NCBI RefSeq assembly: GCF_003667545.1
Contig: NZ_RCUV01000001.1
Coordinates: forward strand, 186,001-250,000
Length of the DNA stretch: 64,000 nucleotides
From: Mycetocola manganoxydans
GTDB taxonomy: Bacteria > Actinomycetota > Actinomycetes > Actinomycetales > Microbacteriaceae
Reading direction: 5' to 3'
Shown piece by piece: positions 12,348 through 36,411 of the stretch (its first letter is position 1; each line of letters begins with the position of its first letter). The notes under the pieces were generated by a model that was not told the DNA's origin, did not search any database, and saw only the letters and a program-made list of their open reading frames with translations. Both the position numbers and the translations under genes were made by a program.

Positions 12348-13718
12348 CTACTCGGGTTTCGGCGTCGCCGACGGCGGATACAGGTCCGCCCGGACGAGTT
12401 CGCGGATCCTGTCGAAGTCGTTGAAGTCGCGCTCGTCGGGGATGATGCCGTTCGCCGGCGTCAGCTCGACCGAGCTGGTCGGCAGTTCCTTGGTCTTCAT
12501 CGCGAGGTTGCCGAAGTAACCCAGCATGTCCTGCGGGATGTCGGTCTTCACCACCTGCGTTCCTGCCTGCGCGATGCTCTGGAACTTCGAGAGCACGTTC
12601 GCGGGTGTGAACTGGTCGAGTATCGCAGCCTGGAGTTCGCGCTGGCGTTCCATCCGGTCGTAGTCGGAGGTGCTGTGCCTGGACCGGGCGTACCACTGGG
12701 CGTAGTAACCGTTGAGCGTGCGGGTCCCCGGCTCGATCCACTCGTCCACGCCGCGCAATTGCTCGTCGCCGCCGATCGGGAGCCGCTCCTTCACGGTGAT
12801 CTCCACGCCACCGAGCGCGTCGACGAGTTTCTCGAACCCCTGCATGTCGATGAGGGCGAAGTACGGGATCTCCAGCCCGAGGATCCCCTCGGCTGCTTCT
12901 TTCGTCGCTTCGATTCCCGGGCTCGACGAGGTCGACGCAGCATCCGGATACAGATCTCCGTGGCGTAACTGGGCCTCGGTGTAGATCGAGTTCAGTTTGC
13001 AACTGCTGACGTCACAACGCCGGTAACCGTCTGGGTACAGCTCGCCCATGGGTGACCCGGCGGAAAACGGCACATTCCGCATGTCGCGTGGCAGCCCGAT
13101 CATGGTCATCCGCCCGGTCTCAGCGTCGAGCGACACCACCGAGATGCTGTCCGGGCGCAGCCCCTCGCGGTCGGGGCCGGCGTCCGCACCGAGCAGGAGG
13201 ATGTTGTATCGACCGTCGACCGGAGGAACGGATGCTGCACCTCCCCCGAAGATGGACTGGAGCGTTCCCCGCGCGACTCCGGCGTAGTACGCGCCGGCCG
13301 TCGCCGTGCCGACAGACAGCACGAGCAGCACGACCGTGCAGGCCGCGATCCAGAATCGGGTGCCTGGCATCGCGCGGATGAGGCGGACGAGGCGGAGCGT
13401 GTCGATAGTGAGAACGAGCCACAGCACCCCGTAGCCGGCGAGGAGGAGCTGGGCAGCGGTGAGAACCCACGAGTTCGTGGCGATCGTAAGGGCAGCCGTG
13501 CGCCAGAGAAAGTAGGCGAGGATCGCGAAGATCCCGATCAGCCACATCGTCAGTGTTGCCGCGAGGCCGAAGCGTCCGAGCTTGCGGTTGCCCGCGAGGA
13601 CCTGGGTGGATCCGGGAATGAGGAAGTTCAGCGCAACGAGCCACCACGCCCGCCGCGTCATGAGTGCGGGAGCCGAGAGGTCCGGGTAGCGAATCGGACT
13701 GGTCGCAGAGACGCTCAT
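12348..13718 (-). CDS. LCP (LytR-CpsA-Psr) family glycopolymer ligase
   Basis: 456 residues. The LCP domain (about residues 165-440) has [20 protein letters not shown], the pyrophosphate-binding Arg in [11 protein letters not shown], and [22 protein letters not shown] enzymes transfer undecaprenyl-linked glycopolymers to peptidoglycan on the outer face of the membrane. Unusually the N-terminus carries about four hydrophobic segments (from about residue 27 to 145, starting [15 protein letters not shown]) instead of one anchor, a variant seen in Micrococcales. Its gene overlaps purE by 4 bp at its 5' end, yet its position next to the glycan genes fits a role in anchoring that polymer. Confidence 0.88.
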
Positions 13719-32835: not shown

Positions 32836-33780
32836 ATGCCCCAGAAAATCCTGCTCGACTGCGACCCCGGCCACGACGACGCGATTGCCATGCTGCTCGC
32901 CCATGGGAACCCGGAGATCGACCTCGTGGCTGTGACGACGGTCATGGGCAACCAGACACTGGAAAAGGTGACCAGGAACGCCCTGTCGGTCGCTCGTGTC
33001 GCCGGGATCACCGGCATCCCGTTCGCCGCAGGAAGCGCGCGTCCCCTCGTGCGGGAGATCGAGACGGCGCCGACGATCCACGGCGAATCCGGCCTCGACG
33101 GGCCGGAGCTGCCCGAGCCGCTGCTCGAGCTCGACTCGAGGAACGCGGTCGAGCTCATCATCGAGACCATCATGACCAACGAGCCGGGCACGATCACGCT
33201 CGTTCCCACCGGCGCCCTCACCAACATCGCCCTCGCGGCGCGGATGGAGCCGCGGATCGTCGAGCGCGTGAAGGAGGTCGTGCTCATGGGTGGAGGCACC
33301 AACTTCGGGAACTGGTCGGCCACCGCTGAGTTCAACATCGTCATCGACCCCGAGGCCGCCCACATCGTCTTCAACGAGGCGTGGCCGCTCACGCAGATCC
33401 CCATCGATGTGACCCATGAAGCGCTGGCAACGCCGGATGTCGTCGAGCGGTTCACCGCGATCGGCACGGCACCTGCGCGGTTCGTGGTCGAGCTGCTCGA
33501 CTTCTTCGGGTCCACCTACCGTGAAGTGCAGGGCTTCGACGCACCCCCGGTGCACGACCCGTGTGCCGTCGCCTACGTCATCGACCCCAGTATCTTCACG
33601 GTGCGGCGTGCTCCGATCACCGTCGAGCTCGTCGGAACCCTGACGGCCGGAATGACCGTCGCCGACTTCCGGGCGCCCGCACCCGCCGACTGCACGACTC
33701 AGGTCGCGATCGGGATCGATACACCCCGGTTCTGGGACCTCGTCGTGGACGCGGTGGAGCGCATCGGCGACCCGGAGTAG
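32836..33780 (+). CDS. Inosine-uridine-type nucleoside hydrolase
   Basis: 314 residues from ATG 32836. It hydrolyses ribonucleosides to base and ribose. The calcium-binding signature LLDCDPGHDDAIAML opens the protein, and VTTVMGNQTLEKVTRN, LVPTGALTNIALA, VVLMGGGTNFGNWS, EFNIVIDPEAAHIVF and the closing HDPCAVAYVIDP complete the family pattern. Substrate range within the family cannot be read. Its stop codon lies 24 bp before the left inverted repeat of the nuclease cassette, so the cassette has landed in its immediate downstream region. Confidence 0.93.
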   Translation: MPQKILLDCDPGHDDAIAMLLAHGNPEIDLVAVTTVMGNQTLEKVTRNALSVARVAGITGIPFAAGSARPLVREIETAPTIHGESGLDGPELPEPLLELDSRNAVELIIETIMTNEPGTITLVPTGALTNIALAARMEPRIVERVKEVVLMGGGTNFGNWSATAEFNIVIDPEAAHIVFNEAWPLTQIPIDVTHEALATPDVVERFTAIGTAPARFVVELLDFFGSTYREVQGFDAPPVHDPCAVAYVIDPSIFTVRRAPITVELVGTLTAGMTVADFRAPAPADCTTQVAIGIDTPRFWDLVVDAVERIGDPE

Positions 33781-33804: not shown

Positions 33805-33915
33805 GCGCGGCATCCGCGTTCGATTCACCACAAATGGTTGCTCACACAATCGATTCACCAGGAAATGTCCGTCCTCTACCCGTCGAGCGACAAGTCGTGG
33901 TGATTCGAGACCGAG
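33805..33915 (+). repeat. Left inverted repeat of the nuclease cassette
   Basis: These 111 bp align with the reverse complement of 34985-35095. The outer part reads GCGCGGCATCCG, 4 nt, then CGATTCACCACA (33821-33832). A second CGATTCACCA follows 30 bp later at 33851. The inner end is GGTGATTCGAGACCGAG (33899-33915). Over the 42 bp ending in the inner GGTGATTCG I count 29 matches to the right copy without gaps. The element begins 24 bp after the iunH stop codon. Confidence 0.8.
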
Positions 33916-34011
33916 CGGTCCCGTTCCCTCACAACTCGCCTTCTCGCGCACACTGTGCACGGGCGCTGCGCGCCTAGTCTCTCGCGGCCGAGTACACCAA
34001 AGAATCGATGA

Positions 34012-34923
34012 GTGACGTTCCGCAAACCTCTTCCGGTGACGATGCCGTCAGCATTCTCGGTGGCCGATGCACTGCACAATGGGCTGACCACCGGGCAGCT
34101 CCGCAACCCGTCGTTCGGGCGACCGTTTTTCGGCACCCGAACGACGCCGGGCGCGTCAGACGCTGTGGAGGTGCGATGCCGCGCGCTGGCCAGTCGGATG
34201 CTTCGCGGCCAGGCCTTCAGCCACCTCACGGCGGCGTTTCTATTCGGAGTGCCGCTTCCGCGCTCAGCGCGTTCGCCGTCACTGCATGTGATGTCGCCGA
34301 CGCCCGTGCGCGCCATGCGTGCGACCGGGGTGACCGGGCATCAGGCGTCACTCGTACCCGACGAGGTCGTACGTGTTGGCGGGCTTCCCGTCACATCGCC
34401 CGAGCGCACGTGGTGCGACCTCGCGGCGCTCCTCGGCTTCGCGGATCTCGTGGCCGCCGGCGATCACCTTCTGTGCTGGAAGTACCCGAGGACGACGATT
34501 GACCAACTGACGGATGCCGTCGCGCGCTACCCCTCTCAGCGCGGTCGAGCCGTCCTGCCCAGAGCACTTGCCGCGCTCAGCACGCGGTCACGATCTCGTC
34601 CCGAATCTCTTCTCCGGGTGGAACTGGTCGCGAGCCCGTTGCCCAACCCCGTCCCGAACTTTGAGGTGCATCTTCGGCTGAGCCGCAGGGACCTCGAGAT
34701 CGACCTCGCCTACCCCGAGTTCAAAGTGGGTCTCGAATACCAGGGGGACCACCACCGCACCGACCGCGGCCAGTGGCGTCGTGACATCCGACGCGGAAAT
34801 GACGCTGTCGATGAGGGATGGAGCATGCTCTACTTCACCGGCGATGACACCGACGACCTCCCAGCCCTGCTTCCGCGGGTCGAGCGACGGCTGCGCGCCC
34901 GCGGCTGGGCCGGCAGCAGCTGA
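34012..34923 (+). CDS. Putative DUF559/Vsr-like nuclease with AbiEi-like N-terminus
   Basis: 303 residues from GTG 34012; ATG 34042 is an alternative. The N-terminal 190 residues resemble the AbiEi-type region common in actinobacterial proteins of this kind (FSHLTAAFLFGVPLP, GLPVTSPERTWCDLAALL). The C-terminal 110 residues look like a restriction-endonuclease fold: E198 in RPESLLR, D231 in RRDLEIDLAYPEF, and E242/Q244 in VGLEYQGDHHR, followed by a RRD.RR helix and the strand WSMLYFT. That E...D...ExQ spacing fits DUF559/Vsr-like proteins. It is the only gene in the inverted-repeat cassette. Family identity is moderately sure; activity and role are unknown. Confidence 0.7.
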   Translation: MTFRKPLPVTMPSAFSVADALHNGLTTGQLRNPSFGRPFFGTRTTPGASDAVEVRCRALASRMLRGQAFSHLTAAFLFGVPLPRSARSPSLHVMSPTPVRAMRATGVTGHQASLVPDEVVRVGGLPVTSPERTWCDLAALLGFADLVAAGDHLLCWKYPRTTIDQLTDAVARYPSQRGRAVLPRALAALSTRSRSRPESLLRVELVASPLPNPVPNFEVHLRLSRRDLEIDLAYPEFKVGLEYQGDHHRTDRGQWRRDIRRGNDAVDEGWSMLYFTGDDTDDLPALLPRVERRLRARGWAGSS

Positions 34924-34984
34924 CGGGAATCTCCGTCGTCAAGCGGTCGACCCGTGGTGACCGAGTCGTCACAAGCCGCTGGTT

Positions 34985-35095
34985 CTCGGTCGAATCACCG
35001 CAATCGGTCGCATGAGCGCTCGAAGAAGGACAGAGTGTGGTGAATCGACAGACGATCAGCAGAGTGTGGTGAATCGATCGACGGATGCCACGCGC
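34985..35095 (-). repeat. Right inverted repeat of the nuclease cassette
   Basis: Inverted counterpart of 33805-33915. Reading inward from 35095 on the minus strand it gives GCGCGTGGCATCCG, 5 nt, CGATTCACCACA, then a second CGATTCACCACA 29 bp on, and ends in GGTGATTCGACCGAG. The 18-mer CAGAGTGTGGTGAATCGA occurs twice exactly (35031-35048 and 35060-35077). The repeat ends 9 bp before the deoA stop codon at 35104. Confidence 0.8.
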
Positions 35096-35103
35096 GGCAC
35101 GCG

Positions 35104-36411
35104 CTACTGGATGCGGTCGCGCACCAGCGGCTCGGGCGTGAACGCGGTGCCGGGCGCCGCGAGTTCCCACGCGCCCTCGATCGCTTCGAGCGCCCGGGGG
35201 AATCGAGCCGCGTCATCCGCAGACAGAGTGAACAACGGCTGCCCGGCACGGACGACGTCTCCCGGCTTCGCATGCAGGTCGACCCCGGACGCGTGCAGCA
35301 CCGGGTCCTGCGCCCGCGCTCGACCTGCACCGAGGCGCCACGCGGCGATCCCGAACGGCAGGGCGTCCTGGCGCACGAGGATGCCATCAGCGGGAGCAGG
35401 GACGGTGTGGGTTTCACGCGCGACCGGCAACGCCGCATCCGGGTCCCCGCCCTGGGCGATGATCGACCGGCGCCACGTGTCCATGGCTCGACCGTCAGAG
35501 AGTGCGGCCTCGACGTCGGCGTCGGGCTGTCCGGCGAGCGTCAGCATCTCGCGGGCAAGAGCGACGGTGAGCTCGACGATGTCTGCGGGTCCACCACCGG
35601 CGAGCACCTCGACAGATTCACGCACCTCGTTGGCGTTGCCGATGGCCAGGCCGAGCGGCACGCTCATGTTCGTGAGCAGCGCCGAGGTCTTGACGCCGGC
35701 ATCCTGCCCGAGCGACACCATGGTGCGCGCGAGTTCTTCCGCCTTGGCATAGTCCTGCATGAACGCACCGGAACCGAACTTCACGTCGAGCACGAGCGCG
35801 CTGGTGCCCTCGGCGATCTTCTTCGACATGATGCTCGACGCGATCAGGGGAATCGCCTCGACGGTCCCGGTGATGTCACGGAGCGCATACAACCGCTTGT
35901 CCGCCGGAGCCAGCCCGGCGCCGGCAGCACAGATGACGCCTCCGACGTCGCGCAGGATCGAGAACATCTCGTCGTTCGACAGGTCGGCGCGCCAGCCGGG
36001 AATCGACTCGAGTTTGTCGAGCGTTCCGCCCGTGTGCCCGAGGCCACGACCGGAGAGCTGCGGTACGGCCACCCCGAAGGATGCCACGAGCGGCATGAGC
36101 GGGAGAGTGATCTTGTCGCCCACTCCCCCGGTCGAGTGTTTGTCGACCGTCGTCTTGCCCAGTGTCGAAAAGTCCATCGTCTCCCCGGACGCGATCATCG
36201 CGAGGGTGAGGTCGCGGATCTCACGGCGGCTCATTCCGTTGAGGAGGATGGCCATCGCCATCGCAGCCATCTGTTCATTGCCGACGAATTCGCGCGTGTA
36301 CGCGTCGACGAGCCAGTTGATCTCGTCGGTCGTCAACTCACCGCGGTCGCGTTTGGTGCGGATGAGGTCGACGGCGTCGAACGATTCGAGCGCTGCGTCA
36401 GTCGTGGTCAT
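35104..36411 (-). CDS. deoA: Thymidine phosphorylase
   Basis: 435 residues. It splits thymidine, deoxyuridine or uridine with phosphate. The pyrimidine phosphorylase core is complete: the N-terminal FDAVDLIRTKRDRGELTTDE, the phosphate loop KHSTGGVGDKITLPLMPLVA, SGRGLGHTGGTLDKLESIPG and DVKFGSGAFM. It overlaps cdd by 14 bp and is the last gene of the operon bmpA, ATPase, permease, permease, cdd, deoA. The right inverted repeat of the nuclease cassette lies directly behind its stop codon, so any terminator of this operon may be in or beyond that repeat. Confidence 0.95.
   Translation of the reverse strand: MTTTDAALESFDAVDLIRTKRDRGELTTDEINWLVDAYTREFVGNEQMAAMAMAILLNGMSRREIRDLTLAMIASGETMDFSTLGKTTVDKHSTGGVGDKITLPLMPLVASFGVAVPQLSGRGLGHTGGTLDKLESIPGWRADLSNDEMFSILRDVGGVICAAGAGLAPADKRLYALRDITGTVEAIPLIASSIMSKKIAEGTSALVLDVKFGSGAFMQDYAKAEELARTMVSLGQDAGVKTSALLTNMSVPLGLAIGNANEVRESVEVLAGGGPADIVELTVALAREMLTLAGQPDADVEAALSDGRAMDTWRRSIIAQGGDPDAALPVARETHTVPAPADGILVRQDALPFGIAAWRLGAGRARAQDPVLHASGVDLHAKPGDVVRAGQPLFTLSADDAARFPRALEAIEGAWELAAPGTAFTPEPLVRDRIQ

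Follow-up and report, generated by a model that had tools for sequence, protein, structure and literature searches.

Genomic context of the nuclease gene

The window, a stretch of 64,000 nucleotides from Mycetocola manganoxydans, contains a gene for a 303-residue protein at positions 34012–34923 of the forward strand, identified from its open reading frame, an AlphaFold model, structure alignment, and conservation. Its neighbors, both open reading frames whose position is kept in relatives, were named iunH (32836–33780, forward strand) and deoA (35104–36411, reverse strand) in an earlier sequence-only reading, and deoA is convergent with the nuclease gene. No toxin or methylase partner was seen beside the nuclease gene in the window.

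The order add-iunH-nuclease-deoA-cdd was kept at loci from Mycetocola and Okibacterium (nuclease identity 60–72%); locus L028 had no iunH match, and the order was complete at L031. The arrangement nuclease-deoA-cdd was also found in a more distant Microbacteriaceae MAG, in which the nuclease was 38% identical. Since the nuclease lies between iunH and deoA in five of the six genomes of the genus, the gene appears to be immobile as a unit and to stay put by vertical descent. The one congener without it at this site, G005, contained another gene in the iunH-deoA interval (L072), presumably encoding a HAD-type phosphatase. The palindromes carried by same-locus relatives differed in sequence and were similar in design.

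Palindromic units flanking the gene

The nuclease gene is flanked by two units of one palindrome family in inverted arrangement. The left unit, CGATTCACC...GGTGATTCG, is an imperfect palindrome of 57 nt (33851–33907, forward strand), and the right unit is likewise an imperfect palindrome of 57 nt (34991–35047, reverse strand). Each is accompanied by an extra direct half-site, one starting 30 nt before the left unit (33821–33843, forward strand) and one at an offset of 29 nt from the right unit (35054–35076, reverse strand); the 23-nt length assigned to both derives from AbiEi operator geometry. Each flank therefore comprises three half-sites: two form the 57-nt palindrome as an inverted pair, and the third is a direct copy approximately 30 nt outward. 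The units begin with CGATT and end with ATTCG, giving CGA...TCG ends.

Matching inverted flanks around the 303-residue gene, as reported in the sequence-only reading, were confirmed: 16-nt arms were 94% complementary, arms of 13 nt and 12 nt were 100% complementary, and the cross-flank alignment score was 49, compared with a 99th percentile of 38 among 436 control position pairs. The 111-bp terminal repeats of that reading had to be redrawn, as the similar parts span 33821–33907 (87 nt) and 34991–35076 (86 nt). As single-stranded DNA, the two window units folded no better than shuffled sequences (z = −1.02 and −0.30), and the RNAalifold covariation term for nine copies (+0.33) gave no support.

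Structure and conservation of the protein

The AlphaFold model (pLDDT 92.9; pTM 0.88) suggested that the protein is a fusion of an AbiEi-type DNA-binding half and a Vsr-like nuclease. In the model, residues from about 1 to 190 resemble AbiEi antitoxins, with a winged helix and a second domain, and residues from about 193 to 299 resemble the nucleases Vsr and I-Bth0305I, with E198, D231, E242, H248, and D258 as putative active-site residues. Nucleases of the Vsr and I-Bth0305I kind carry the label "EDxHD". VIA-align superposed residues 3–190 on AbiEi (6y8q; Z = 12.2, 176 residues, rmsd 5.5) and residues 1–189 on Rv2827c (1zel; Z = 9.3). For the C-terminal half, residues 195–299 aligned with I-Bth0305I (3r3p; Z = 12.5, rmsd 2.3) and residues 193–298 with Vsr (1cw0; Z = 10.4).

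PADLOC AbiEi models matched the N-terminal half (E = 3.7e-09), and PF09407 scored 15.6 bits, below its cut-off of 22.2. The nuclease part matched REase_MTES_1575 (PF18741) weakly, at 13.2 bits and below the curated cut-off of 38.2, and NCBIfam returned no useful match for seven proteins. Structural prediction thus supports the AbiEi-like N-terminal part and nuclease C-terminal part that the sequence-only reading had proposed. Of its assignment of the nuclease type, the nuclease fold stands as a prediction and the DUF559 label does not, the fold being Vsr/I-Bth0305I-like and Pfam listing no DUF559 model (PF04480) at E ≤ 1.

Of 112 proteins compared, E198 was kept in all 112 and D231 in 110; H248 was present in 87 proteins and replaced by Lys in 24. 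A separate conservation alignment omitted L044 (containing a stop codon) and several other loci. The ratio dN/dS was 0.09–0.20 in six pairs.

Copies of the palindrome in the genome

Within the window, the half-site GTGGTGAATCGA with at most two mismatches occurred 12 times against a mean expectation of 7.15, a difference that was not significant (9 of 100 shuffles reached 12). Genome-wide, with at most one mismatch, it occurred 27 times compared with one match for the reversed pattern. Because the same search in five congeners gave 6 to 18 matches (0 to 4 reversed), a good part of the 27 matches is background. Single half-site counts were accordingly rejected as proof of dispersal, being weak against this congener background, and whole units and longer patterns were used instead. 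The exact sequence CGTCGATAAGGGT occurred five times in G002 and not at all in five congeners, whereas with one mismatch the counts were 16 versus 2–17, so that only the exact counts are telling.

Whole units of 56–57 nt comprised the two in the window and seven elsewhere in the own genome; the seven came from six of 19 own-genome stretches that had been picked for a motif match, and three further script hits, which were overlaps or one-armed, were left out of this count. No unit with its ends read backwards was found in 161,042 bases. A 60-nt match at position 13637 of the window is probably due to chance.

Paralogs and their palindrome families

Eight match rows for the protein in its own genome resolved into six paralogs and one weak partial match. 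No further copy of the complete cassette was found in the own genome, the other matches being diverged paralogs with at most 54% identity whose flanking repeats, where seen, differed from those in the window. The two flanks matched each other in four of the six paralogs (L001, L002, L005, and L007). L004 carried two tandem units on one side. L003 had a single hairpin, located in its right flank (2403–2469) with 33-nt arms, 88% complementarity, and a 1-nt loop, which is either a terminator or a one-copy palindrome. The palindrome families of the paralogs differed from one another (TCGATTCACC, GCTCGGTCAC, CGAGTTGCCC, GAATTCACTC, and TTCGTCGGTCCC).

The family of one paralog was represented by 50 half-sites in the own genome against one control match. 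These half-sites make up 23 units with a uniform length of 58 nt, and two of the units flank that paralog. The second family, CGATCGGKCCSAAAGGGTC, had 44 half-sites against no control matches, arranged in eight units of 57 nt and seven of 87 nt (57+30), with a same-strand spacing of 30 in all 12 cases. This second family also had 54 half-sites in the congener G001, in which it flanks the orthologous nuclease, and between one and nine in four other congeners. Among the own-genome copies listed (e.g., L010, L014, and L017), none lies beside a nuclease; the family may be left over from an older specificity.

In the assembly, two palindrome-bearing paralogs are disrupted, L002 (G000:C28:27839-28747) and L005/L006 (G000:C26:24002-24930): one match contains an in-frame TAG, and the other runs over two frames. 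The palindromes of L005/L006 still form one of the most numerous families. Because the listed own-genome copies of the CGATCGGKCCSAAAGGGTC family occur without an adjoining nuclease and two palindrome-bearing paralogs are broken, the nuclease appears not to be needed for palindrome persistence. A palindrome unit lies no more than about 200 bp from the end of several contigs (C27, C28, and C11 of G000; C15, C27, C53, C64, and C75 of G047), so the repeats break short-read assemblies.

Association of nucleases and palindromes across Actinomycetota

Across Actinomycetota, palindromes of 56–59 nt with a sequence of their own often flank homologous nucleases. In a family sample, a homologue was found in 30 of 40 genomes (E ≤ 1e-20), with up to 12 matches per genome; in a phylum sample, 22 of 119 genomes contained one (E ≤ 1e-30). 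We scored the similarity of left and right flanks at 41 loci, consisting of the six own-genome loci and 35 of 40 others. Flank similarity exceeded the 95th percentile of control position pairs at 29 of these loci and the 99th percentile at 25, and two of the six own-genome loci failed the latter. Against mismatched flanks of other loci, only 11 of the 41 passed the 99th percentile, which rose to 69 because related species share palindromes.

The analysis was extended to 80 further loci from the family sample, in 12 Microbacteriaceae genomes chosen for having several matches. Compared with 665 control pairs, 37 loci were above the 95th and 27 above the 99th percentile; compared with 462 mismatched pairs formed with other paralogs of the same genome, the counts were 37 and 28, respectively. 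That 28 of the 80 loci surpassed the other-paralog flanks of their own genome shows that the repeats belong to the individual paralog rather than to the genome at large. The 53 loci below the 99th percentile included all nine loci of G032, and palindromes at such loci may be one-sided, diverged, or absent. In the phylum sample, 15 of 27 loci exceeded the 99th percentile of mismatched pairs, one of the 28 new loci having been dropped for unclear orientation.

Of the 80 loci, 58 had intergenic flanks of at least 60 bp on both sides; matching intergenic flanks with a score of at least 32 were present at 31 of these 58 nuclease genes and at none of 76 control genes. Hairpins with a score of at least 12 were found in 61 of 119 intergenic regions of at least 150 bp beside a nuclease gene, as compared with 11 of 78 such regions elsewhere. 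Hairpin lengths beside nuclease genes peaked at 56–59 nt, and the hairpins often started with CGAG, CGAA, or CGAC. At the 80 loci, 33 hairpins of 54–60 nt lay within 400 bp of the gene (0.516 per kb) and seven further off (0.018 per kb). The similarity of palindrome arms averaged 0.86 for proteins more than 80% identical (n = 8) and 0.42–0.45 below 50% identity; over all pairs, protein identity and arm similarity correlated weakly (Spearman 0.20).

Presence and absence of units at orthologous sites in Agreia

Four genomes of the genus Agreia contained 19, 25, 27, and 27 half-palindromes against no control matches in any of the four. Two Agreia units flank the nuclease. Of the 39 Agreia units examined, 38 were intergenic, although 83% of those loci is coding.

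Of 16 sites considered, the 12 with a fetched orthologue were compared. At five of the 12, one species had a clearly filled site where another had an empty one. L222 held 352 nt in G046 and was empty in G047, G044, and G045; L229 held 474 nt in G047 against 4 nt in G046; L214 held 574 nt in G046 against 29 nt in G047; and L217 differed by 107 versus 20 nt. L243 held 91 nt in G045, was absent from G047, and had a variant palindrome in G046. Among the other sites, L230 differed by approximately 1.3 kb, two aligned through and were not resolved, and four aligned on one side only.

Filled sites often contained composite inserts of 350–570 nt, and neither a clean target duplication nor a clean insertion end was found at the 12 compared sites. 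At L214, L222, and L229, the inserts are composite islands that include further repeats, for example a CCCTGAGC(C/T)TGTCGAAGGG motif. Palindrome units thus come and go at orthologous sites; given composite inserts and no fixed target duplication, the comparison establishes turnover and not its mode.

Comparison with known systems

The closest known organization is the REPtron, which PMC6006769 describes as an immobile gene with its own dispersed palindromes on its flanks and one family per enzyme. The system described here shares with REPtrons (TnpA_REP/RAYT and REPs) the placing of palindromes both beside the enzyme gene and scattered through intergenic regions, an individual palindrome family for each enzyme, several families per genome, and a gene that is immobile as a unit. 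For the palindrome flanks, this likeness holds at many loci and not at every locus. The enzyme differs, being AbiEi-like and Vsr-like here rather than an HUH/Y1 transposase. No match to Y1_Tnp (PF01797) was found in the own genome at E ≤ 0.001, and the same model was found in 5 of 14 control genomes; a RAYT acting in trans was rejected on this basis. The units also differ from REPs in size, at about 57 nt with 23-nt arms compared with the 20–40 bp given in the abstract of PMC3733652. The title of that article names a GTAG or CGTC tag; by eye, the window units carry neither as an end tag and have the ends CGA...TCG. A term search of the main text of PMC3733652 found no mention of Actinobacteria or of five other terms.

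For the N-terminal half, the relevant comparison is with the AbiEi antitoxins of Streptococcus agalactiae (AbiEi) and Mycobacterium tuberculosis (Rv2827c), with which the first 190 residues share a fold (Z = 12.2 and 9.3, respectively). According to PMC7319586, the binding site of AbiEi is a pair of 23-bp inverted repeats separated by 3 bp, and the Rv2827c promoter contains 23-bp repeat pairs 13 bp apart, giving 59 bp. These operators of 49 or 59 bp, as described there, compare with 57 here, which can be written as 23+11+23, and the 30-nt spacing of the extra half-sites as 23+7. Unlike in the antitoxins, the AbiEi-like part is fused to a nuclease, and palindromes are also located downstream and dispersed. 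The locus likewise differs from AbiE type IV toxin-antitoxin systems in that no AbiEii nucleotidyltransferase toxin gene adjoins it, the neighbors being iunH and deoA.

The C-terminal half shares with Vsr and I-Bth0305I its predicted fold (Z = 10.4 and 12.5, respectively) and conserved acidic and His residues, and differs from them in being joined to an AbiEi-like half and in that no intron, intein, or mismatch context was seen. REase_MTES_1575 (PF18741), matched weakly at 13.2 bits, is a Vsr-type domain described in PMC3710099; the protein described there differs from the window protein in being a large HEPN fusion. Among open PMC articles, a set outside which preprints and most subscription journals lie, no report of an AbiEi-Vsr nuclease paired with palindromes was found.

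Proposed function and alternative explanations

We consider the best explanation, with a probability of roughly 0.55, to be a widespread two-part system consisting of an AbiEi-Vsr-like nuclease and a cognate palindrome of about 57 bp, located beside the gene and scattered in intergenic regions, in which the nuclease would bind, probably cut, and help to spread the palindromes. This explanation builds on the observed association, paralog specificity, fixed geometry, dispersal, and presence/absence variation. The unit of 23+11+23, the spacing of 23+7, and the geometry of AbiEi operators together suggest by analogy that the AbiEi-like half binds the palindrome. Two protein molecules would occupy the two 23-bp half-sites, as AbiEi antitoxins do on their operators, and binding upstream may also control the nuclease gene. 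In a bolder step, the Vsr-like half would nick or cut the palindrome or DNA close to it, and palindromes could then be copied or removed by repair or by processing of single-stranded DNA, such that a family spreads and turns over. Copying and loss driven by cutting would account for dispersed, variable sites that match the neighboring nuclease, and the organization would work like a REPtron with an unrelated enzyme. The alternative raised in the sequence-only reading, in which the nuclease would itself bring about mobility or copying, is supported in part: nuclease genes and specific palindromes associate across many genomes, and orthologous sites of close relatives differ in whether they carry a palindrome. 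As regards activity, it stays conjectural.

A simpler account treats the palindromes as operators only, serving autoregulation and perhaps a regulon, with the nuclease half acting elsewhere (on phage DNA or mismatches) and the sites being spread by ordinary recombination. Vsr is a repair nickase, which is in keeping with this account, and upstream copies are common, with 43 of 81 hairpins with a score of at least 12 lying left of the gene. The geometry also fits the operators of AbiEi and Rv2827c described in PMC7319586. However, downstream hairpins were nearly as many (38 of 81), one family had dozens of intergenic copies, and units were present or absent at orthologous sites; autoregulation alone explains the upstream sites and not the downstream and dispersed ones, and we regard this account as unlikely. 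A protective or attack system, in which the nuclease attacks DNA with or without palindromes (homing, addiction, or defense) and the chromosomal copies are self marks or homing scars, seems improbable. The resemblance of the nuclease half to the homing endonuclease I-Bth0305I, the match of PADLOC AbiEi models to the N-terminal half, and the several paralogs of differing specificity per genome would suit such a role, but no methylase or toxin partner was seen beside the gene in the window and the gene keeps one place across the genus.

That the palindromes are generic repeats moved by another enzyme and gathering by nuclease genes in roomy intergenic space accords with the filled Agreia sites, which are often composite islands with other repeats. 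Control flanks and intergenic regions speak against it (0 of 76; 11 of 78 versus 61 of 119), as does the observation that left and right flanks match each other and not other paralogs of the same genome, making this quite improbable. The sequence-only reading took the gene and its terminal repeats for a small transposon, perhaps moved in trans. Three points on which it had turned came out as follows: further repeat copies exist, the gene is absent from the site in one congener, and a nuclease fold is predicted. The two units are indeed in inverted arrangement, but the same locus is occupied in five of six congeners and in a more distant MAG, the same-locus relatives carry other palindromes, units occur alone elsewhere, and no second cassette copy was found, so that a mobile cassette is very improbable. 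The related candidate of a cassette with terminal inverted repeats or a MITE was rejected for the conserved locus, the lone units, and the single cassette, and the G005 site holds another gene. Transcription terminators or chance palindromes have a similarly slight chance of being correct. With the nuclease gene and deoA running toward each other, a terminator is to be expected between them; the same family is nevertheless found upstream and downstream, with a fixed length of 57/58 nt, dispersed copies, and paralog-specific sequence. Terminators were rejected as a candidate on hairpin position, density, fixed length, and the flank-match controls.

A more far-reaching form of the two-part system, which we advance tentatively and at somewhat less than even odds, is that Actinomycetota possess a second class of REPtron that evolved independently, in which AbiEi-Vsr fusions would each recognize a private 57-bp palindrome and drive its genome-wide copying, with many pairs side by side changing specificity and leaving abundant orphan families. 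As to novelty, the REPtron is the closest kind and fails on the defining enzyme; a stricter reader could see a variant of REPtron organization.

To our knowledge, a single enzyme superfamily has until now been linked with REP-like palindromes. If the two-part system is real, an unrelated second nuclease with private palindromes in a large phylum would mean that the partnership of enzyme and palindrome has more than one origin. A large group of multicopy genes in actinobacteria that lack a name would gain a function, the spread of short palindromes would become testable with a new enzyme, and nature would offer many pairs in which a DNA-binding nuclease is matched to a long target site.
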